From the IMG/VR virus record IMGVR_UViG_3300044974_001280, positions 1-64,000 of that record: a stretch of 64,000 nt of DNA; one strand, written 5' to 3'. Of the stretch, positions 34,564 to 56,052 are shown one piece after another. Every line of letters begins with the position of its first letter. Position 1 is the first letter of the stretch. The DNA is from a virus. Position numbers and translations under genes: made by a program. A model generated the notes under the pieces. That model had not been told where the DNA came from. It saw only the letters and a list, made by a program, of their open reading frames with translations, and made no database searches.

Positions 34564-34923
34564 ATGTCGAAGATCTATGTAACTAATCAAAATCTGATGG
34601 AGGCAATTCTTGAATCTAAAGAGAAGGGAGAATTAACACCAGCAGCCATAGAAATGTTCACTCTGATGATCTCGGGCATTTCTAAAAAAATGTCTTATAA
34701 GGATCCTGATGATAAAGATGATTGTATGGCTTTTGCCATGGAGGATCTTTGCAAATATTGGAATAGATTCGACCCAGAAAAATCCAACAATCCTTTTTCC
34801 TATTACACCCAAATAGCCAAAAATGGGTTTGCAAAAGGCTGGAAAAAAATACATCCCCCCAAATCACCTAAGACTATTCCTTTTTCTCACATCACGGGAG
34901 AAGATAATTCTTATAATGTGTAA
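34564..34923 (+). CDS. Late promoter sigma factor, T4 gp55-like
   Basis: This 119-residue protein aligns in pattern with T4 gp55 over residues ~25-97: MFTLMISGISKKMSYKDP, DDCMAFAMEDLCKYWNRFDP and NPFSYYTQIAKNGFAKGWKK (the sigma region 2-like part that recognises the late TATAAATA box). It is shorter than T4 gp55 (185); the C-terminal sliding-clamp-binding segment of gp55 is not evident. The GATATATA elements before structural genes are its likely targets. It overlaps the gp4-like gene by one base. Confidence 0.75.
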   Translation: MSKIYVTNQNLMEAILESKEKGELTPAAIEMFTLMISGISKKMSYKDPDDKDDCMAFAMEDLCKYWNRFDPEKSNNPFSYYTQIAKNGFAKGWKKIHPPKSPKTIPFSHITGEDNSYNV

Positions 34924-35405
34924 TGACTGATATCAAAAAAATCAAGCCAAATGGCAATTTTAAATCTGGCGTATTTGCCCCTTTAAATCCAGAAAAATAC
35001 ATCGGAGATATCAATAACATCATTTGCAGATCAAGCTGGGAATACAGGTTCTGTAAATACTGTGATTCGAATCCACTGATTTTAAAATGGTCTTCTGAGC
35101 CCCTGCCAATTCCTTACTACAACCCTTTAGATCAGAAAGATCATAAATATCATGTTGACTTTTACATGAGGGTCCAGCAGGAAAACGGGGAACAGCAGGA
35201 ATGGCTTATCGAGGTAAAGCCCCAGAGACAGCACGAAAAACCAGTTTTCGAAGGAAGCAAAACCAACGAAAAATTGAAATCCTACAACGATAAGATGAAA
35301 GTCTGGATCACCAATCAGGCTAAATTTAAAGCGGCAAAAATCTGGGCAGAAGCGAGAGGAATGAAATTTGGAGTAGTAAACGAGAATTTCCTATTTAACA
35401 AGTAA
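34923..35405 (+). CDS. Head completion nuclease, T4 gp4-like
   Basis: This 160-residue protein has the gp4/gp50 pattern: SGVFAPLNPEKYIGD near 15-29, IICRSSWEYRFCKYCDSNP near 33-51, VDFYMRV near 77-83 and EWLIEVKPQRQHEKP near 92-106. This is a TnsA/PD-(D/E)XK-like core with Glu-39, Asp-78 and Glu-x-Lys near 96-98. T4 gp4 finishes filled heads before tail attachment. It is translationally coupled to the gp55-like gene. Confidence 0.8.
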   Translation: MTDIKKIKPNGNFKSGVFAPLNPEKYIGDINNIICRSSWEYRFCKYCDSNPLILKWSSEPLPIPYYNPLDQKDHKYHVDFYMRVQQENGEQQEWLIEVKPQRQHEKPVFEGSKTNEKLKSYNDKMKVWITNQAKFKAAKIWAEARGMKFGVVNENFLFNK

Positions 35406-35506: not shown

Positions 35507-37111
35507 ATGGCAGGTTTTAGCGAGAATCCAAACACCAATCCAATCTTTCAGAAGATTAGGGATTCGGTTAAAAATCTGAGTAATTTCGGGATCCGATATG
35601 GTGACATGGTTGTCAAAAATTCTCAGGCTATTGGGGCCACTGAAGCTGAATTTTTGAAAAAAGGACCTATTGAGGATGAAACCACCTTCTTTTCTTTAGG
35701 TCGCCAAGACACAACCACCAGGCAGTATATTTCTTATTTTGATAAAGACTATGCGGGAAAAAGAGATTATCTGAGAAAATTCTCTTTGAACCCTGAGATA
35801 GAATACATTTTAGACACTGTCTGTGATGAATCTATTACTTACGATTCTTATAATTTCTTTGCCTATCCAGCTTTTCTGAACCTATCTAATCTTAAAAAGT
35901 CCGTTATCGATCGCATCGATTCGACTTATAAGAAACTGTATGACATGTTCGGTTTCAACGATGACATTTCGGCCTGGCAGTATTTCAGGCAAATGCTGGT
36001 GGATGGATTTATTGCCTTTGAGATTGTCTTTGATGATAGCGGCAGAAACATCATCGGATTTAAAGAGCTAGATGCCACGACCCTCATGCCTTCTGTGGAA
36101 AAACAGAAAGACGGAACTTTTTTGAATGTTTGGTATCAATACCCTAAAGATGAAAGAAAAAGAAGAATGTTGTACGACTCTCAGGTCATCTACATTTCTT
36201 ACGCCAAAGGCAATTCTATTTCTAGAGTTAGCTACACAGAAAGACTGATTAGACCTTACAATGTCTTGAGAATTATCGAATACACCAGAGTTATTTGGTC
36301 GGTCATGAATGCTTCTTTTAGGATGAAGATGACCATTCCGGTGGGATCTAGATCCCAACAGAAAGCAATGCAAACTCTGGGAGAATTGATGTCTATCTAC
36401 AAAGAGGACATCCAGTTTAACGACGAGAGTGGAGAACTTTCTGTTAACGGCCAACCCAAGATTCAGTTCTATAAGAACTATCTAATGCCCAAAGGAGCAG
36501 GAGGCACCCCTTCTATTGAGCCTCTAAACACGGCAGGCCCCAATCTGAATGATCCTGCCCCATTAGCCTATTTTTTCGATAAATTAGTGCAGGAATCAAA
36601 AATTCCTTTTTCCCGGTTTCAGGGGCCTGATGGCGGATCTATTGGAAAATACGCTAATGCTGCCGAAGGTTTAGATAAAGAAGAAATCAGATTCTCTAAA
36701 TTTATTATGAGGCTTAGATCTGTATTTCAGGATATCCTGGTTAAGCCTCTATGGATTCAAATCTGTAAAGATTTTCCCCAACTAGAAAAGGATTACACTT
36801 TTAAATCCCAATTAGGTCTAAGCTATGTTTCAGATAACCCCTTCCGGGTTAACCAGGAGATTGAAACCATTACGAAGAGAAAAGAATTTATAGATTCTCT
36901 TTATACCCTCACCGACGAGGAAGGAAATCCTTTCTTTTCTATCTCATATCTAGTGGAAAACTACATGGGTCTTACTGAGGATGATATAGCTTCTAATAAA
37001 AAAGCCAGAAGTGATAACAAATTAAAATCTGCTGAAGAAGCTGCGGCTGCCAGCGCATCTCCGCCAGCGGGCGAGTCCGAGCCAGAAGTAGCACCAGAAA
37101 CCCCAGTATAA
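35507..37111 (+). CDS. Portal protein (gp20-like), copy 1
   Basis: This 534-residue protein matches T4-like portals in length and motifs: MVVKNSQAIGATEAEF near 34-49, SLNPEIEYILDTVCDE near 94-109, GFKELDATTLMP near 184-195, SYAKGNSISRVSYTERLIRP near 236-255, and MRLRSVFQDILVKPLWIQIC near 401-420. The ring forms the head vertex and DNA channel. It has a late promoter 58 bases upstream and one of the few strong Shine-Dalgarno sequences here (aaaggaggaata). A second portal gene follows after 5 bases. Confidence 0.92.
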   Translation: MAGFSENPNTNPIFQKIRDSVKNLSNFGIRYGDMVVKNSQAIGATEAEFLKKGPIEDETTFFSLGRQDTTTRQYISYFDKDYAGKRDYLRKFSLNPEIEYILDTVCDESITYDSYNFFAYPAFLNLSNLKKSVIDRIDSTYKKLYDMFGFNDDISAWQYFRQMLVDGFIAFEIVFDDSGRNIIGFKELDATTLMPSVEKQKDGTFLNVWYQYPKDERKRRMLYDSQVIYISYAKGNSISRVSYTERLIRPYNVLRIIEYTRVIWSVMNASFRMKMTIPVGSRSQQKAMQTLGELMSIYKEDIQFNDESGELSVNGQPKIQFYKNYLMPKGAGGTPSIEPLNTAGPNLNDPAPLAYFFDKLVQESKIPFSRFQGPDGGSIGKYANAAEGLDKEEIRFSKFIMRLRSVFQDILVKPLWIQICKDFPQLEKDYTFKSQLGLSYVSDNPFRVNQEIETITKRKEFIDSLYTLTDEEGNPFFSISYLVENYMGLTEDDIASNKKARSDNKLKSAEEAAAASASPPAGESEPEVAPETPV

Positions 37112-37116
37112 TAGAC

Positions 37117-38742
37117 ATGGCAGGATTTTTAGATAATGCTCAGGAAAAATCTTTTTTGGGGGTTCTGTACAGAAACCTCGGAAAGATTAGTAAATTCGGG
37201 ATGCAATATGAAGATATGGTTATCCGTAATTCTCAGGCCATTGGTGCTACCGAATCGACCTTTTTTAACAATCAAGGCACTGGTTTTACCGAAAATGATG
37301 CCTTTTTCTGGACTTTAGGTTACCAGGATACCAGAATCAGAAAATACATCGCCTATTTTGATAAGGATTATCTTGGTAAAAGAGAATTCCTTCGCAAATT
37401 TGCTCTCAACGGAGAAATAGATTTCATTCTAGACACCGTTACTGATGATGCGATAAACTACGATGACAAGAATTTTTTCTGCTACCCCAGTTTGGTGAAT
37501 ATTGAGCTGAAAGACAACGTCAGGGAGAGAGTGGAAGAAAATTTTAGAACCTTATATAATCTTTTTGGCTTTCAACAAAGCATTCTGGCTTGGCAGTACT
37601 TCAAGCAGTTTTTGGTTGATGGTTTTTTGGCTTTTGAGATTGTTTATTCTACAGATGGCAAGAAAATAGTTGGATTCAAAGAACTAGACGCCACCTCACT
37701 TCAGCCGGCCACTGAAAAACAGCCCAACGGGGAATTCCAACAAATTTGGATCCAATATCCTCAGGACAACCGAATGACCAGAAAGCTGAAATCGGAACAG
37801 GTTATTTACTTGTCTTACGCCAAGGGCAATGCTGTCTCCAGAGTTAGCTACACAGAAAGGCTCATTCGTTCCTATAACATTTTAAGGGTGATGGAAAATA
37901 CGAGAGTTATTTGGAATGTCATGAATGCATCCTATCGACTGAAGTTCATTATCCCTGTTGGTACTCAATCCATGCAAAAAGGCATGCAGACTCTTGGTCA
38001 ATTGATGTCCCAGTACAAGGAGGAGATCCAGATCAACGACACTTCGGGGGAACTAACGGTCAATGGTGCACCCAGAGTCCAGTTTTATAAAAACTATCTG
38101 TTCCCTGAGAAGGACGGCGAATCTCCTGATATTAGCACACTCAACCCCAGCGGACCGGATTTTAACGTGATGGAAAATGTTGTTTATTTTTACAACAAAT
38201 TGAAGTTGGATTCTAAAATCCCTTACGCCAGGTTTTCAGCCAGATCCGGAACCCCTGCTAATTATCAGATTAGCATAGATCAGTTGGAGAGGGACGAAAT
38301 TCGATATGAAAAATTTGTAACTCGTCTGAGATCTGTTTTCCAGGAGATCCTAGTTAAACCTCTTTATATCCAAATGTGTCTAGATTTTCCTGTTTTGTCA
38401 AAGGATCGTACTTTTAAGGTAAATTTGGGTTTAGATTATGTGAAGGAAAATGTCTTCGAACAAATGATTCAGTTGTCCAACTATTCCAAGAGAGCATCTT
38501 TTATTTCCAGCATGGGTGAGATAAAAATGAAAGTGGGGGAAGAGGAATTACCCTATTTTGACAAAGAATGGCTTATCAAAAGATGGCTGGGTCTTAGTAT
38601 GGATGAATACAGGATGAACGAAAAGTACAAGAAGGAAGAGAAGGAAGAAGCAGATAAATTAAAGAAAGATCAAGAGAAAGAAGGAGAGAAGAAAGGAGAA
38701 GGGGGAGAGGGACAAGCAGAAACACCTAGTTTTACCCTATAA
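37117..38742 (+). CDS. Portal protein (gp20-like), copy 2
   Basis: This 541-residue full-length paralogue of copy 1 has RNSQAIGATESTFF near 38-51, GFKELDATSLQP, SYAKGNAVSRVSYTERLIRS, and TRLRSVFQEILVKPLYIQMC. The fold-defining regions are collinear throughout and neither copy shows frameshifts or missing blocks, so both are likely functional. The C-terminal 40 residues are a Lys/Glu/Gly-rich tail (EKEGEKKGEGGEGQ) unlike copy 1's Ala/Pro tail. It starts 5 bases after copy 1, so the two are co-expressed. Confidence 0.92.
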   Translation: MAGFLDNAQEKSFLGVLYRNLGKISKFGMQYEDMVIRNSQAIGATESTFFNNQGTGFTENDAFFWTLGYQDTRIRKYIAYFDKDYLGKREFLRKFALNGEIDFILDTVTDDAINYDDKNFFCYPSLVNIELKDNVRERVEENFRTLYNLFGFQQSILAWQYFKQFLVDGFLAFEIVYSTDGKKIVGFKELDATSLQPATEKQPNGEFQQIWIQYPQDNRMTRKLKSEQVIYLSYAKGNAVSRVSYTERLIRSYNILRVMENTRVIWNVMNASYRLKFIIPVGTQSMQKGMQTLGQLMSQYKEEIQINDTSGELTVNGAPRVQFYKNYLFPEKDGESPDISTLNPSGPDFNVMENVVYFYNKLKLDSKIPYARFSARSGTPANYQISIDQLERDEIRYEKFVTRLRSVFQEILVKPLYIQMCLDFPVLSKDRTFKVNLGLDYVKENVFEQMIQLSNYSKRASFISSMGEIKMKVGEEELPYFDKEWLIKRWLGLSMDEYRMNEKYKKEEKEEADKLKKDQEKEGEKKGEGGEGQAETPSFTL

Positions 38743-48895: not shown

Positions 48896-51397
48896 ATGTA
48901 CACCATTCTCGACACAAAAAAAATCATCAAGGGCAGTTATGCTGACCCTAAAAAAGAACCTGGTATTTTTCCAATTGTTAATTTACCACTGGACGACGAG
49001 GGCGAGGACATGGAGTTAAACGACTTTCAGTGGGTTGCCCCAACAGATAGATGGTTGGAGTGGTTAAAAGAAAACCCCAGAGATTGGCAAGCCGAGAGCG
49101 AAGATTCTCGATATGAATTCGACTATATTCTGGTTGAATCATATTCAACAGAGGAAGATCCCTACCTATTTCTATTTCAACCTCAAAATTACGACCAGCC
49201 CACATCAGAAAGTTATCTCCAGTCCTTCGATGAGTTTGCCCAGATCTACGAGGAGGAATTGGACGGTGGATCGGAGGAATTAACAGGCAGAGCGGTCAAA
49301 CTTGCCTTTGCCTTAGAGAAATTAAACAAAGAAGGCAAACTGAAAGAGGAGCTCAACCCCAGCGAGCTAGACAAAGCTAAAGAATATGCCATCATTTTCG
49401 ACCCGGTCGACTCCGCCAAGAACGAGGTCATTCCAAGCGGGAGAAACGCAGTCCGATTTAAACTTCTCTCTCAAGATGAAGACACAATTTCAGTTGGTAA
49501 AATAGATTATTCCCTGTTGACCGACGAAGACCTGCCCGACAATATGACAGCTGAAGAGCAGAGTGAGTGGATGAAAGGGTTACTTGATGAGGCAGGAGAC
49601 ATAGGAAAGGCAGGGATCTGGGGTTTAACTGCCTATGGTGTAGCAACAACTGTAGGTGGAACAGTCGGTACCTATCTTAGTTATAAGGGTATTCAGAAGT
49701 GGATGCGAAGAGGAACTACAACACCTCCTCCAGGTGGTACCCCTCCAGCCGGTCCTGGTTTAGTATCCAGAATTGGAACCTGGCTCAGCGGACGTAGAGC
49801 CTGGCTTAGCGGAACACGAGCAGCCTCAGGACTAAGATCACTTCACGTTGCGGCAGCTGGAATTCCAAGACTTGGCTCTTTATTTGGAGGAGCCGCATCC
49901 GCTGCTGCCGGAGGGTCAGCTGCAGTTGGAGCCGGTATAGCTGCTGGTGTTTTAGCAATAGTTTCAGCTGCCCAACAAGTTTATAATTGGTCGTCTACCA
50001 ATCAAGCTCCCACATACAGTAAACTGAAATCTTTCGCCAAAGATTCTTTCGTTCCTAGAAACACTCCTGCCGGTGGTTTAATTACTGTGTGTTGGACCGC
50101 AGACGGAGGGAAAGGTTTTTGGGGAAATATAACAAATATCTTCAAAGACGATACTAGAACAACCATGAATCTAATGAAGCTGGCAAACACGGATAAAAAA
50201 GCTGTTTTTCTCCTTCTCTCTGTCAACTCTGAACAAATCCAAAAAGAGAGGAACCAGTACGATGCTATTCTTTTTTCTTTCGATCTAGATTCTGCTTTTG
50301 AACACGGATATTTGGATAACGACGATTTAGAATTCCAAATCATTAGGATCAAACCTCTCAGTGATTTCTCGACCCCGACCTCGTTTGTCGCCTACTGTGA
50401 ATGGTCGGAACTAAAATCAGCTTTTGATTCGGCTCCAGATAGTCCGTTTGTTGTTCCGGCAGATGCTCCTGACAGCTATGTCTTTAATTATCAGCAAGGA
50501 GATCAGAGAGCCAATATACAAGGTTCTCTTCTATCAGCTGAAACCATAGCTTCTCAACGTAGTTTGTTTGAGAGTGATTCGGCAGATCTTTCGGATGTTG
50601 TCTTTATTAGTAACACCTCGGTTCTGGAAGGCAACAAGGCTTTAGGCTTCAATGAATTCTGGAGATCTAACTCTATCTCTCTGTTCGAAGAAGACAAAAA
50701 TTCAGCAGATGAGAGCAAAAAAGATTCTAAATCGGTTCAATTAGGAATCTCGAAAGATTCGGATTATTCACAAACCGAAATCATAGTGTACGAGGTCAGT
50801 AGTAACGAATTTGCCAACCCCAATGCCAGCGGAAACCCTCCAGAAGTTAACTACTTTATAGTAGACAAAAGAAGCTTATCAGCCACTGATGGCCAATCTG
50901 TGAAAGTTGAATCGTCGGCAGGAAAAAGATTCCAGGATGCTAAATACGGTTTAGCAATTTATAAAGAAGAGACCGAAGACACAAAACAGAAAAAAGGGGA
51001 AGGAGATGAAGAAGATGAGGAATCTTTAGCCCCAATTCCACCAACAGATGGCAAAAAAGACACAGGTTCATTACTCACCTCTCCTGATGATGTTTCAATC
51101 AAGGATAGAAGAAGAAGAACTGTTATTAAAGACAAACCAACCAATAGGGAGGAAGATGTCAATATTATAGATGATATTCTTACAAACGATGATAAAAAGT
51201 CTTTAGGTATTCAGGATTGGAAAACCCTCACAAAAATAGTTCTAGTTAAAGATAAAGAAGGTTATCCAGAAAAAGTCATTCTGAAAAATCAAACCCAAGG
51301 CAGAGATAGAACTAGAAGAATTAAGAGAGGTGAATCAGGATTTGAAACCGCTGTTAAGATAGCTGATAAGGTTAAAAGTTCAATCAAATACAAATAA
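48896..51397 (+). CDS. Large internal virion protein with Gly/Ala hydrophobic centre
   Basis: This is an 833-residue unrecognised protein. Residues 1-235 are acidic. Residues ~240-355 contain hydrophobic Gly/Ala-rich stretches (IWGLTAYGVATTVGGTVGTY and GAGIAAGVLAIVSAAQQVY) around a Pro/Gly/Arg linker, which could insert in membranes. The C-terminal half is mixed alpha/beta and ends in Lys/Arg-rich segments with KOW-like VLVKDKEGYPEKVIL. A segment LQSFDEFAQIYEEEL near 107-121 resembles the capsid-targeting motif. A late promoter lies in the end of the preceding gene. An ejected or internal head protein is a reasonable hypothesis. Confidence 0.5.
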   Translation: MYTILDTKKIIKGSYADPKKEPGIFPIVNLPLDDEGEDMELNDFQWVAPTDRWLEWLKENPRDWQAESEDSRYEFDYILVESYSTEEDPYLFLFQPQNYDQPTSESYLQSFDEFAQIYEEELDGGSEELTGRAVKLAFALEKLNKEGKLKEELNPSELDKAKEYAIIFDPVDSAKNEVIPSGRNAVRFKLLSQDEDTISVGKIDYSLLTDEDLPDNMTAEEQSEWMKGLLDEAGDIGKAGIWGLTAYGVATTVGGTVGTYLSYKGIQKWMRRGTTTPPPGGTPPAGPGLVSRIGTWLSGRRAWLSGTRAASGLRSLHVAAAGIPRLGSLFGGAASAAAGGSAAVGAGIAAGVLAIVSAAQQVYNWSSTNQAPTYSKLKSFAKDSFVPRNTPAGGLITVCWTADGGKGFWGNITNIFKDDTRTTMNLMKLANTDKKAVFLLLSVNSEQIQKERNQYDAILFSFDLDSAFEHGYLDNDDLEFQIIRIKPLSDFSTPTSFVAYCEWSELKSAFDSAPDSPFVVPADAPDSYVFNYQQGDQRANIQGSLLSAETIASQRSLFESDSADLSDVVFISNTSVLEGNKALGFNEFWRSNSISLFEEDKNSADESKKDSKSVQLGISKDSDYSQTEIIVYEVSSNEFANPNASGNPPEVNYFIVDKRSLSATDGQSVKVESSAGKRFQDAKYGLAIYKEETEDTKQKKGEGDEEDEESLAPIPPTDGKKDTGSLLTSPDDVSIKDRRRRTVIKDKPTNREEDVNIIDDILTNDDKKSLGIQDWKTLTKIVLVKDKEGYPEKVILKNQTQGRDRTRRIKRGESGFETAVKIADKVKSSIKYK

Positions 51398-51422
51398 TCT
51401 CAAAAATTTAAAATTTCAGAAA

Positions 51423-51445
51423 TTAGAATAGATATATAATTCTAA
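51423..51445 (+). promoter_or_regulatory. Late promoter element in a 7-bp inverted repeat before the protease-scaffold gene
   Basis: TTAGAAT (51423-51429) and ATTCTAA (51439-51445) are perfect inverted repeats on either side of GATATATA (51431-51438). The ATG at 51463 is 24 bases beyond the promoter box. Confidence 0.7.
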
Positions 51446-51462
51446 ATAAAAAATAACAGCCC

Positions 51463-53493
51463 ATGAGTCTAGGTCCTTTTGGAGAAGATATGGTTTTCAT
51501 TCTGGAAAAACAGAATCACCATGTTAATGTTTCGAAACAGAAAGTAGATGGGGACAATGTTTACACATTGAAAGGAATTGCTGCTCAATTTGGTAAAGAA
51601 AACAACAACAATAGAATCTACGAAGAAGCAGAATATCTACCCCATCTTGACTACTTGAACGAGAAAATCAAACAAAAAAGATTGGTTGGTGAACTAGATC
51701 ACCCCGAGAAATTTGATGTCTCTCTCAGAAACATTTCACACATCATCGAAAATCTCGAGTATGATAAAAACGGTCGGGTACTGAACATTAAAGTCAAGTT
51801 GCTTGATACTCCCGCAGGTCAGATTGCCAAGAAGCTGGTTGATGCCGGTGTTCCTCTTTCTATTTCTTCAAGAGCTGCTGGTAATGTGGGTCCGGATAAA
51901 AAGGTTCAGATCAAAAAGATCTTCACTTACGACCTAGTCGCAGATCCTGGTTTTCAAGACGCCCAATTAGAAAGAGTCTATGAAAGCGCGGGCTTTTCTT
52001 TTTCGGAATTCGCCGACAAGACTAAAAATTCCATTGTGAGCCATTTAGAGTGTATCAATGAATCTTTGGGTCTAAAAAATAACGATTCAGTAAAGATATA
52101 TAGAGTCGAAAATAACGAAGAATTCGAAAAAATATTCACAACAGAAAAAAATAACATCGATATTATGGAGTCACAAAAAAGAGAATTCGTTACGGCCGAA
52201 GAGCTCAACAAATATTCTATTTTTCTGAAAAAGAAAATGGAGGAAATGGAAATGCAAATTCAGGAGATGAAGAGCAGTTCACCACAGTCAAGCAATGCAT
52301 CTGAAAATGCTCAGCTGTTGGAGAGAATTGACCGTCTAGAAGAATATTCCGAATATCTAGCCGAAAATTTAGAGGATGCTATCAAATACGGCGAATATTT
52401 GGCTGAAAATTTGGACGACTCCATCAATTACAGCAAGTATCTGGCCGAGAGCCTGGATAAATCGATCTCTTACTCGAAGTATTTGGCCGAGAATGTAGAC
52501 AACTCTATTTCTTATTCAGAATACGTAGCAGAGAATGTGGATAGAACCATCAACTACTCGAAATATTTGGCAGAAAAGATCGACGATGGTATTCAGTACA
52601 GCGAGTATGTGGCTGAAAACCTAGGTAACAGTATTGCCTACTCTGAATATCTGGCCGAAAACGTCGACAGAGGAATTGCCTACTCTGAATATCTGGCCGA
52701 GAAGGTTGATAGGAACATTTCGTACTCTGAATATCTGGCCGAGTATATCGATAAAGACATCGCCTACTCTGAATATCTAGGAGAAAAAATAGATCAAGGT
52801 ATTTCTTACTCTGAATATCTGGCTGAAAAACTAGATCAGGGTATCTCTTATTCGGAATATCTGGCTGAAAATGTGAACAGGACTATCTCTTACTCTGAAT
52901 ACATTGCAGAAAAATTAAACGGCACAATTGAATTTGGTGAGGCACTATCAGAAAAAGTTGGTTATCCAACCCATCTGAATTCCAGAGCCAGATCAGAAGC
53001 AAATCTTGCCGCTAAAACTGAATTATTTGAATCAGGATTTGCCGGGGATTATAATAACCTCGGAAGTCAAATCGATTCATTAATCGAATCGGTCCAAACC
53101 CAAAAGACCGAATTAACCCGGGCCCAACTGGTTGGAAGGCCCTCTGCCCACACTCCAAAGGCAGAAGAGATGCTCAACGAGAATCAATCAGCCACCATTT
53201 CCTCCTCAGGTCATAAATTTATCGACGAAATGCCGGAAAATTATGCTCCAATTTGGGAATCTCTCAACGAAGGACAGAAGCAATCTATTATTGCTCAGTC
53301 CGCTTTCTATCGATTGGAGACACCTTATCAGATCAACAATTTCTGGTCTACTCGTAACTTGAGGAAAGAAACGGTGACTATGCAGAGACTCGATGAGAAT
53401 CAACAAACCCATGCTCTTCCCCAGTCGACGACTCGTGCTTATGGAAGTGATTACCTAAACTGGGTAGCTCAATCACTGGAGAAAAGATTCTAA
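51463..53493 (+). CDS. Prohead protease (gp21-like) fused to repeat-based scaffold
   Basis: This is a 676-residue protein. Residues ~30-165 are a gp21/S78-type prohead protease: GIAAQFGKENNNNRIYEEAE, VGELDHPEKF (catalytic His) and PLSISSRAAGNV (catalytic Ser). A coiled-coil linker follows. From residue 295 to 490 there are fourteen 14-residue repeats, consensus YSEYLAENVDxGIS, with a decayed fifteenth. The C-terminal ~150 residues are conserved-looking (SGHKFIDEMPENYAPIWESL). Each repeat has an (L/I/V)-x-E triad, the T4 prohead protease cleavage type. T4 encodes protease and scaffold (gp22) separately. The capsid gene follows after 26 bases. Confidence 0.85.
   Translation: MSLGPFGEDMVFILEKQNHHVNVSKQKVDGDNVYTLKGIAAQFGKENNNNRIYEEAEYLPHLDYLNEKIKQKRLVGELDHPEKFDVSLRNISHIIENLEYDKNGRVLNIKVKLLDTPAGQIAKKLVDAGVPLSISSRAAGNVGPDKKVQIKKIFTYDLVADPGFQDAQLERVYESAGFSFSEFADKTKNSIVSHLECINESLGLKNNDSVKIYRVENNEEFEKIFTTEKNNIDIMESQKREFVTAEELNKYSIFLKKKMEEMEMQIQEMKSSSPQSSNASENAQLLERIDRLEEYSEYLAENLEDAIKYGEYLAENLDDSINYSKYLAESLDKSISYSKYLAENVDNSISYSEYVAENVDRTINYSKYLAEKIDDGIQYSEYVAENLGNSIAYSEYLAENVDRGIAYSEYLAEKVDRNISYSEYLAEYIDKDIAYSEYLGEKIDQGISYSEYLAEKLDQGISYSEYLAENVNRTISYSEYIAEKLNGTIEFGEALSEKVGYPTHLNSRARSEANLAAKTELFESGFAGDYNNLGSQIDSLIESVQTQKTELTRAQLVGRPSAHTPKAEEMLNENQSATISSSGHKFIDEMPENYAPIWESLNEGQKQSIIAQSAFYRLETPYQINNFWSTRNLRKETVTMQRLDENQQTHALPQSTTRAYGSDYLNWVAQSLEKRF
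52095..52102 (+). promoter_or_regulatory. Internal late-promoter-like GATATATA inside the protease-scaffold gene
   Basis: This exact copy of the late element lies 62 bases before an in-frame ATG at 52165 (residue 235, MESQKREFVTAEELNKY). That position follows the protease domain and precedes the coiled coil and repeats. It could drive a scaffold-only product of about 442 residues. Chance occurrence in AT-rich coding DNA is possible. Confidence 0.45.
52345..52932 (+). repeat. Fourteen tandem 42-bp (14-residue) scaffold repeats
   Basis: The units encode YSEYLAExxDxxIx. Fourteen residues equals two heptads, consistent with a continuous helical or coiled-coil rod. DNA identity between units is moderate, highest in units 7-13 (gaatatctggccga recurs). 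Confidence 0.95.
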
Positions 53494-53519
53494 AAAAAAA
53501 CAAAAAAAACAATAAAAAA

Positions 53520-55241
53520 ATGAAACTAATTAACGAAGCCGAGATTTTTGATACCTGGGCACCTATTATTGAACAAAAAGCTGGTATCACTGATCCCTCA
53601 AAACAAACTTGGTTGGCAAAATATTGCCACTACCACTCCCTCAACGAGTCTGCCGGTGCATATCAGTCGTTGAATGTCGTCAACGGTATGGGTGCCGTTA
53701 CACCTCCTACCTTCCCAGCAGCAACAGCAGCCGGTTCTCTTGGCGGTCTAACTCCTAACCAAGGATTCTACAGCCAGTCTTGGCAAGGATCTGGCGATAA
53801 GTTCCCTTCACTTCTTCCTTTGGCTATTCAGGTAGCTGCGAAGACTGTAGGTTTCGACATCGTTCCAGTTATTCCAATGTCCGGTCCTTCTGGCGTTTTG
53901 TCCTACCTTGACTATGTGTATGCCGGTGGTAAGATCAGCCCGCAAAACGCCGGAACTACAGCTGCCGAGGCTTTGGCAAATGCTCCTACAATGATCAAAT
54001 TGCAAATCACTACCCAGACGAACATGTCTTTACTAGAGGTAGGACCAAATACACCAGGTACAGATTATTACATCTCCAACGCCAGTGCTTCAGCTACTGA
54101 ATACATCACTGCTAGGTTTGTAGGCTACTCTAGAATTGATGGATTTCCAATTTTTGAAATCACAGCAATGACCGCAGGTGAAACTGTTGCCTCCGTTCTT
54201 AGCGGAGGTGCTTTCATTGGTACTACAATTGCCGGAGATGAAGTTGGTAGTACCACAGCTACTGCTTCTCTGGTTAAGGCTCTAGAGGATCACATTCAGG
54301 GTTTCTCTGGTGCAGGTTTTTATGACGATCAGAATTGGCAAGGTCCCTTCACCGATGGCACACAGACTTACAATCCGATGCTAAGAAGTGTAGGTGAAGA
54401 AAACTACTACAATTTGATGGGTCTAACGACTTTCACTAAGTTCGTAGAAGCCGACACCTTCCAGGTAGCCGCTTCCGTTACCACGGAGCAAATCCAGGAT
54501 CTCAACAAGCAATTCGGAATCGATGTTATCTCAATGATCGAAAACGCATTGGTGAATGAGGTTTCTCAGGCTATCAACAAGCACATCTTGTCAAGGGCAT
54601 TTGCTTTAGGATGGTCTAACACCTATGCTTTCTTCCAAACAGAAGCACAGAATTTGAACTTGAGCCTAGTATTGGGTGGTGCAACAGGAACTACCCTTGC
54701 CTATGTTACTAAAACTGACGGAACCCAATCAATGTCTATCCCAGCCGGGCCTGCTAATGGAGGTTACGAGAATTTGTCAACTCTACAGAGAAGGCTTTTC
54801 TCCCGGATCTTGGCAGCTGCCAACATGGTAGCTAACAGAGGTAGAAGAGGTCCTGCTAACTTCATTGTTACCAACGCTAATTTGGCTTCGGCAATGCAGG
54901 ACATCAGCCAATTCACTTTCGCTCCTTTCACTAACACCTTGACTCAGAACAATGGTACTCTGTATCCAGTAGGTTCTTTGGCAGGTATGACTGTCTACGT
55001 CGATCAAAACATGAGATTCTCCGATAACCGTATCCTAGTCGGTAGAAAAGGTGGAGACGACGAGCCAGGTCTAAAATTCATGCCTTACATGATGGCTGAA
55101 TCTATCCAGACTATCTCCGAGGGAACTATGTCTCCTAAAATCGCGGTCAAGTCTCGTTACGCTCTAGTAGAAGCTGGTTTCCACCCAGAAACCATGTATG
55201 CTACTTTCTTCGTACAAGTTCCGGTTGGAGGTATCAACTAA
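53520..55241 (+). CDS. Major capsid protein (gp23-like)
   Basis: This 573-residue protein matches T4-like gp23. The N-terminal arm MKLINEAEIFDTWAPIIEQ resembles the T4 gp23 start, and GDKFPSLLPLAIQVAAKTVG then FDIVPVIPMSGPSG open the HK97-type core. The C-terminal ALVEAGFHPETMYATFFVQV is also typical. A likely maturation site is HSLNE/SAGAY after residue 43 (L-x-E type), comparable to T4 cleavage after residue 65. Codon use and richer GC near the middle are as expected for a highly expressed gene. A strong terminator follows. Confidence 0.95.
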   Translation: MKLINEAEIFDTWAPIIEQKAGITDPSKQTWLAKYCHYHSLNESAGAYQSLNVVNGMGAVTPPTFPAATAAGSLGGLTPNQGFYSQSWQGSGDKFPSLLPLAIQVAAKTVGFDIVPVIPMSGPSGVLSYLDYVYAGGKISPQNAGTTAAEALANAPTMIKLQITTQTNMSLLEVGPNTPGTDYYISNASASATEYITARFVGYSRIDGFPIFEITAMTAGETVASVLSGGAFIGTTIAGDEVGSTTATASLVKALEDHIQGFSGAGFYDDQNWQGPFTDGTQTYNPMLRSVGEENYYNLMGLTTFTKFVEADTFQVAASVTTEQIQDLNKQFGIDVISMIENALVNEVSQAINKHILSRAFALGWSNTYAFFQTEAQNLNLSLVLGGATGTTLAYVTKTDGTQSMSIPAGPANGGYENLSTLQRRLFSRILAAANMVANRGRRGPANFIVTNANLASAMQDISQFTFAPFTNTLTQNNGTLYPVGSLAGMTVYVDQNMRFSDNRILVGRKGGDDEPGLKFMPYMMAESIQTISEGTMSPKIAVKSRYALVEAGFHPETMYATFFVQVPVGGIN

Positions 55242-55264
55242 TCCATCGGATCAAATACGTCAAC

Positions 55265-55299
55265 AAAAATCCCAGTGTTTTTCACTGGGATTTTTTTTT
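55265..55299 (+). terminator. Intrinsic terminator after the capsid gene
   Basis: AAAAATCCCAGTG (55265-55277) pairs perfectly with CACTGGGATTTTT (55283-55295) around a T5 loop, with the T-run continuing to 55299. It isolates the capsid transcript from the following late promoter at 55332. Confidence 0.93.
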
Positions 55300-55331
55300 G
55301 CAGTATTGTCTTGGATTATATTCGATGGAAG

Positions 55332-55339
55332 GATATATA
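55332..55339 (+). promoter_or_regulatory. Late promoter element (GATATATA) after the capsid terminator
   Basis: This exact copy lies 33 bases after the capsid terminator and 20 bases before the ATG at 55360. It starts the transcript of the coiled-coil head proteins. Confidence 0.68.
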
Positions 55340-55359
55340 CTTAGAAAATAATAAAGGGT

Positions 55360-56052
55360 ATGTCATACATTTTAGATTTTGAATCTTATGATTCTGGAAG
55401 AAAAAAATCTGAGGACACTCTGGATGAAAAATCTCTACTAGCTCTAGAATCCTGGATTGAAGACCTGAACGAATCTCGACTACTGGACGAAATAAAAAAC
55501 AGATTTTCCAAACTGTTGGGCGGTTTTTCTAATATCAATGCAATAGACGAAATTAGAAAAGGTATGCTGAAACTGAAAAAAGAAATTCTGGAGAAAAAAT
55601 ACGAAACCCAAGAAGAGATCTCAGATTTAGAATTAAAACTTGAGCAACTAGAGCAGAAGAAAACTAAAACATCTACCGATAAAACAGCTATTGAGGCAGT
55701 CGAAAAAGAAATTATAGCCAAAAAAGAAGAGTATAGAGCTTTCTTAAAAAGTCAAAACGACAGAATGCAGAAAGGCAAAGAACTGCTCCAGAAAACAATA
55801 AGCAAAAAAGACCGGCTCAAGAGGTACTTAGAATCTGTCGAGACTGATGATAAATTAGAAATCTCTGAGTATGAGTACGAGCTGGCCAAAAAACACTCGG
55901 CCGATGCGGCTGAAATCTCTAAATTAAAGAATCGAATAGATAAGGCAAAAAAAGATGCCAAAGATCTATTAAGCTCTTTAAGAAAAAAGCCCAGTCCGGG
56001 CGCAAGAGGTTCAACAAACTCGTCAAGCTCTGGTTGGGGATTTTTTCCTTGA
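55360..56052 (+). CDS. Coiled-coil head-associated protein (paralogue of 56104)
   Basis: This 230-residue protein starts MSYILDFESYDSG, the capsid-targeting-like motif. It then has several L-x-E triads (LALE, DLNE, LLDE) within residues 20-45. The rest is a long Lys/Glu coiled coil (residues ~65-205) and ends in a Ser/Gly tail with GWGFF. The segment IKNRFSKLLGGFSNINAID matches LKWFSNTFGGDKNKID of the next gene, indicating duplication. It is a probable internal head protein by analogy with T4 IP proteins. Confidence 0.55.
   Translation: MSYILDFESYDSGRKKSEDTLDEKSLLALESWIEDLNESRLLDEIKNRFSKLLGGFSNINAIDEIRKGMLKLKKEILEKKYETQEEISDLELKLEQLEQKKTKTSTDKTAIEAVEKEIIAKKEEYRAFLKSQNDRMQKGKELLQKTISKKDRLKRYLESVETDDKLEISEYEYELAKKHSADAAEISKLKNRIDKAKKDAKDLLSSLRKKPSPGARGSTNSSSSGWGFFP

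Follow-up and report, generated by a model that had tools for sequence, protein, structure and literature searches.

The core and shell of phage T4 take 576 copies of the scaffold protein gp22, 100 of the protease gp21 and 960 of the capsid protein gp23, and the locus described here raises the question of how a scaffold could outnumber a protease when both are encoded in one reading frame. The locus lies in the window, by which we mean the whole stretch of 64,000 nucleotides analysed from a 230-kb virus record (Table 1). Comparison of related genes suggests that the head protease gene of a group of large bacterial viruses harbours both an additional late promoter and an additional start codon, and the nested unit that these would form offers an explanation for the excess of scaffold over protease.

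The comparison drew on 163 loci carrying the gene, of which 104 had a distinct gene start; 85 of these were also intact at the 5' end and sufficiently long, and together with the window, the 85 loci collapsed into 65 clusters, 60 of them near and 5 far. A further 80 loci, 76 of them usable, contributed 56 non-redundant members outside the near set, from which one near-like locus (L256) was left out of the mid counts, giving 55 mid loci. The capsid gene was in view in 57 of the 59 near loci and 52 of the 55 mid loci, and Lak-A1 (L006), which was aligned once, is excluded from all counts.

Table 1. Features of the locus and of the late sigma gene, in window coordinates
Feature	Position	Strand	Basis
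gp55-like late sigma factor, 119 aa (putative)	34564..34923	+	PHROG 234, 8.5e-15; Sigma70_r2, 1.3e-4
Upstream late promoter GATATATA of the full-length fusion gene (predicted)	51431..51438	+	Exact motif, 24 nt before ATG 51463
Protease-scaffold fusion gene, 676 aa	51463..53493	+	Peptidase_S77; PHROG 207; fold match to T4 gp21
Internal late promoter GATATATA (predicted)	52095..52102	+	Invariant in 60/60 near homologues
A-rich leader before the internal start	52147..52164	+	AAA AAT codons, excess synonymous conservation
Nested candidate scaffold frame, 442 aa	52165..53493	+	ATGGA invariant in 60/60 near homologues
14-residue repeats Y-[LVI]-[AG]-E, one long predicted helix	52340..52960	+	14 repeats with the core; AlphaFold2 model
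Major capsid protein, gp23-like	53520..55241	+	Pfam Gp23, 2.4e-39; 26 nt behind the scaffold stop

The fusion gene and its predicted products

The N-terminal part of the fusion is, by sequence profile and predicted fold, a prohead protease of the gp21 (S77) type. Pfam Peptidase_S77 covers residues 35-143 (3.8e-8; 33.5 bits against a cut-off of 27), the fusion protein matches the head maturation protease family PHROG 207 at 1.1e-37, and a fold search with the AlphaFold2 model gives T4 gp21 (5jbl) as the top solved match (Z 13.9, rmsd 3.6, 131 residues aligned), with herpesvirus proteases ranking next at Z about 5-7 (7.1 in the next row). Fold-search rows that matched the long helix alone (e.g. 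9iik_C) were disregarded, since such helices match commonly, and a search of PDB chains with a 42-row sequence profile returned no matches. Residues H80, S135 and S136, which may be catalytic, do not vary across 42 sequences.

Beyond the protease, the AlphaFold2 model predicts a 218-residue helix at residues 279-496 followed by a C-terminal helical domain, at a mean pLDDT of just 56.7. The scaffold part matched none of the named scaffold families in Pfam and PHROG, and the gp22 family is absent among the Pfam and PHROG matches of the C-terminal part up to an E-value of 1. According to a passage in PMC9026906, T4 gp21 cleaves after L/I-x-E; the scaffold part holds 23 of these, whereas shuffled versions average 8.7 and reach 18 at most. 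Nearly every 14-residue repeat contains L-A-E, the T4 gp21 cleavage motif, or a close form of it, so that the scaffold could be cut into short peptides for removal, and the repeat region looks as if it were designed for cutting at every repeat. From its position, its long predicted helix and its L/I-x-E sites we infer that the product of the short frame is the scaffold, which would supply a candidate scaffold for these large phages.

The late octamer and its internal copy

Judged from its distribution, GATATATA is a genuine motif of this phage and a predicted late promoter octamer of T4 type: it differs at two positions from the T4 late octamer TATAAATA, is strand-specific and stands ahead of genes. 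The window holds 15 copies on the plus strand and none on the minus strand (1.03 expected on both strands); 14 of them lie 8-58 nt ahead of a gene start, and the copy at 52095 is the only one deep within a gene. Over the whole record there are 38 forward and 9 reverse copies, while the pattern spelled backwards occurs 9 and 2 times, respectively. The 59 near loci (778,805 bp) contain 290 copies on the plus strand and 1 on the minus strand, a bias that gene direction explains in part, since these loci are mostly late-gene regions; to allow for this, 280 octamers of equal base composition were counted as well, and among them GATATATA has the highest plus-strand count. An ATG opening a long frame follows within about 100 nt in 232 of the 290 plus-strand cases, and all 60 near homologues have one GATATATA 25-36 nt ahead of the start of the fusion gene itself. 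Ahead of the fused gene in the far megaphages (L001-L005) and in the mid group, AATATATA replaces GATATATA, so that the late octamer seems to drift between lineages. A scan of positions 51300-55500 for sigma-70 promoters added nothing (6 found versus 8.9 in shuffles).

A candidate factor for reading the octamer is encoded upstream in the window. The PHROG 234 (late sigma) search also produced matches in 7 of 14 control genomes, and the gp55-like assignment therefore leans in addition on the short length of the gene and on its Sigma70_r2 match, which falls just under the curated cut-off. Directly 3' of this gene and before the portal genes lies a TnsA-like endonuclease domain (1.5e-18; 34923-35405), and the T4-like portal protein gp20 is matched twice, by the tandem genes at 35507-37111 (3.2e-62) and 37117-38742 (3.3e-60).

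The internal copy is conserved in a manner that the protein does not call for. Exactly one GATATATA occurs inside the gene, at identical aligned codons, in all 60 non-redundant near homologues (window included), which share about 46-74% amino-acid identity with the window protein; these counts come from related, non-independent sequences, and the safeguards are the near-saturation of synonymous sites (same-codon use elsewhere in the gene is 0.52, versus 0.45 from codon usage) and a tree of the protease part, which requires at least 8 changes at the first motif codon. Synonymous shuffles of the near genes gave any GATATATA in 7% of trials. The first motif codon is AAG, ATG, AGG, CGG, CAG or GAG, encoding K (46), M (8), R (4), Q (1) or E (1), and its final base is G in 60/60, compared with 12.7% of codons in the near genes overall; the fourth encodes K (36), R (17), N (4) or S (3), always with A as its first base. 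Among 123 columns with an invariant amino acid (M and W excluded) two are invariant in their codon, both of them in the motif (ATA and TAT), and the longest invariant nucleotide runs in this 2-kb gene are GATATATA (8) and ATGGA (5), all others being of 2 or fewer. The 55 mid homologues have no GATATATA at that column, where they encode mostly I-Y or I-F with varying codons.

Selection on the internal motif as DNA, beyond the needs of the protein, is thus strongly supported. Chance or protein constraint, with GATATATA merely mirroring a conserved K-I-Y-K peptide, would fit the fact that I and Y are conserved residues; the flanking residues vary, however, while the bases G and A stay fixed, and the mid homologues largely keep the residues with different codons. 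On these grounds we reject the idea that the protein dictates the motif, and give such a reading virtually no credence.

The second of the invariant runs begins at the internal ATG, which is retained in all 60 near homologues, 62-71 nt past the motif, in a linker that has undergone many changes and indels; of the columns between residues 213 and 243, that of its methionine, M235, is alone in being invariant. The AAA AAT codons before it show a synonymous conservation of 0.98 where 0.53 is expected, and the A fraction over positions -20 to -1 is 0.56, higher than for other in-frame ATGs (0.40) and lower than ahead of either the start of the fusion gene (0.65) or the capsid gene (0.71). It speaks against a nested unit that the internal leader, at 62 nt, is longer than those at the other sites of the window (8-58 nt). 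A methionine found with a loose pattern is present in 50 of the 56 mid and far homologues that lack the exact motif, and the start may accordingly predate the promoter or be partly a feature of the protein.

Because the protein has no need of this conservation at the DNA level, a nested promoter with an internal start is strongly supported. The initial annotation of this DNA had placed an exact GATATATA after the protease domain and an in-frame ATG at 52165, with products of ~77 and ~50 kDa; the octamer indeed lies within the open reading frame on the plus strand, the ATG is codon 235 of that frame, and the predicted masses are 77.2 kDa for the full product of 676 aa and 50.7 kDa for the internal product of 442 aa. 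Its proposal of a nested late promoter and internal start in the protease gene gains support from the conservation across the near homologues.

The capsid gene and the proposed transcription unit

The window contains no GATATATA between 52095 and 55332, and hence none before the major capsid gene. The same holds throughout the near group, where the gap between the scaffold stop and the capsid gene is 16-39 nt (57 loci) and neither GATATATA nor AATATATA occurs within 120 nt of the capsid start in any of 57 loci. A separate exact promoter directly ahead of the capsid gene was accordingly rejected for this group (0/57), the best near-matches having 1-3 mismatches. With the motif missing there in every near locus, the internal promoter probably serves the major capsid gene as well, which in this group has no motif of its own. 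Farther along the window, the predicted proteins at 55360, 57041 and 62258 have similar short N-terminal stretches, such as MIKKF..F, which we take to resemble T4 capsid targeting sequences.

The more distant relatives qualify this picture. The far megaphages L001-L004 carry AATATATA 28-37 nt ahead of the capsid gene, and L005 carries ATATATA; from these five came the idea that internal and capsid promoters exclude one another. A check of the mid loci within 60 nt of the capsid start found 1/52, seemingly contradicting it, and a wider look asked where [GA]ATATATA first occurs going upstream from the capsid gene: in the gap in 21/52, inside the fused gene in 4/52 and upstream of the fused gene in 27/52. 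With the nearest exact motif so often upstream of the fused gene, exclusion is not general for exact motifs, and since L180 and L235 carry both promoters we reduced it to a tendency. A pattern chosen after inspection of the data, GATA[TAC]ATA, is found in the linker before the internal methionine in 9/9 mid loci with a gap below 60 nt and in 6/43 with longer gaps, and across the mid genes it has 16 matches in 7.8 kb of linker and 4 in the remaining 85 kb. With exact GATATATA in its place the counts are 3/9 and 2/43; these 5 of 55 mid genes all carry it in the linker, at codon positions that differ from those of the near group. Both the gap and linker pattern and the exact linker copies fit a promoter that would serve scaffold and capsid together.

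We therefore propose, with a probability of roughly 80%, a gene with two co-terminal products. Late in infection a gp55-like sigma factor would read GATATATA at 51431, giving the full protease-scaffold fusion, and the identical sigma would read the second GATATATA, at 52095 inside the gene, giving a shorter mRNA. Translated from ATG 52165, this mRNA would yield the long-helix repeats and C-terminal domain alone, that is, the scaffold, and it would continue into the major capsid gene 26 nt on; scaffold and capsid protein would thereby be produced together, both in excess over the protease.

Three other readings differ from this proposal in what the internal elements do. If the internal promoter drove the major capsid gene only, the internal ATG being a conserved residue and no short scaffold being made, the motif-free capsid start in 57/57 near loci, the linker motif that accompanies a short scaffold-to-capsid gap in the mid loci, and the retention of the internal methionine in most homologues without the promoter would all be expected; we nevertheless regard this as unlikely, given that only one invariant nucleotide run is longer than ATGGA, which lies in an indel-bearing linker where M235 stands alone among residues 213-243, behind an A-rich, synonymously constrained leader. 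That a short product is made and has another role, for example as an internal head protein or an ejected protein, strikes us as a shade less probable again: the want of a match to named scaffold families and the low confidence of the structural model speak for it, and against it stand the location between protease and major capsid gene, like that of T4 gene 22, the predicted 218-residue helix, and the surplus of L/I-x-E sites (23 versus 8.7 when shuffled), the T4 protease motif of parts that get cut up. Nesting by translation only, in the manner of lambda C/Nu3, would have the internal start used on the full-length mRNA and GATATATA serving as no promoter; it agrees with the fact that mid and far homologues keep the internal methionine while lacking the exact motif, but the octamer also precedes the gene itself in 60/60 and the majority of late genes, confined to one strand, and its internal copy is kept as DNA despite amino-acid change, which leaves this possibility a very small chance of being right.

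Comparison with known systems

T4 genes 21, 22 and 23 have the same order of protease, scaffold and capsid and a protease of the gp21 type, but T4 encodes protease and scaffold in two genes, whereas in this phage they share one frame with the promoter inside. One T4 TATAAATA (L171, 6083-6090), which contains the gene 21 stop codon, lies 35 nt ahead of gene 22, and another late octamer TATAAATA lies inside the end of gene 22, ahead of gene 23; in phage 121Q, TATAAATA is found between separate protease and scaffold genes. The cultured Chryseobacterium phage MA9V-2 and Flavobacterium phage MaF61 have an S77-like protease at the N-terminus of proteins of 1207 and about 1400 aa, and lack GATATATA where protease and scaffold join; in MA9V-2, TATAAATA is found elsewhere inside the gene and 40 nt before the capsid gene.

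The likeness to lambda C/Nu3 drawn in the initial annotation holds for the nested start, though probably not for the promoter. Nu3 lies inside C and is made by an internal start, Nu3 is not known to have a separate promoter of its own, and the protease family of lambda C differs from the S77 type. A passage in PMC8508860 describes protease and scaffold of lambda as encoded by one gene. Among titles, abstract openings and passages of the literature, including those of PMC9723584 and PMC12363816, we recognised no account of a nested promoter or scaffold within a T4-type protease gene.

The closest analogue of the proposed mechanism is the UL26/UL26.5 pair of the herpesviruses (HSV-1 and pseudorabies virus), in which, according to a passage in PMC4498786, the protease gene overlaps an in-frame scaffold gene with a common 3' end. 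The herpesvirus protease fold is related to that of this phage, at Z about 5-7, right after T4 gp21. A paper of 1991 reportedly found UL26.5 to be transcribed as a unit of its own, from a promoter that lies, like its coding sequence, inside UL26 and in the same frame. The two systems differ in that UL26/UL26.5 depends on eukaryotic transcription, whereas the phage would use a late octamer and probably has the capsid gene downstream on the same mRNA.

A broader statement, which we offer tentatively and judge a little more apt to fail than to hold, is that a widespread group of large phages launches a single late scaffold and capsid mRNA from inside the protease gene; that this replaces the capsid promoter and has been re-made at other codons in related lineages; and that the logic of UL26/UL26.5 would thus operate on a homologous protease, with a scaffold cuttable for removal at nearly every repeat. 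What the comparison of sequences does bring forward is a nested second late transcription unit, apparently under strong selection, within the protease genes of many large phages that have not been cultured; the parallel between tailed phages and herpesviruses would thereby take in gene layout as well as the protease fold.
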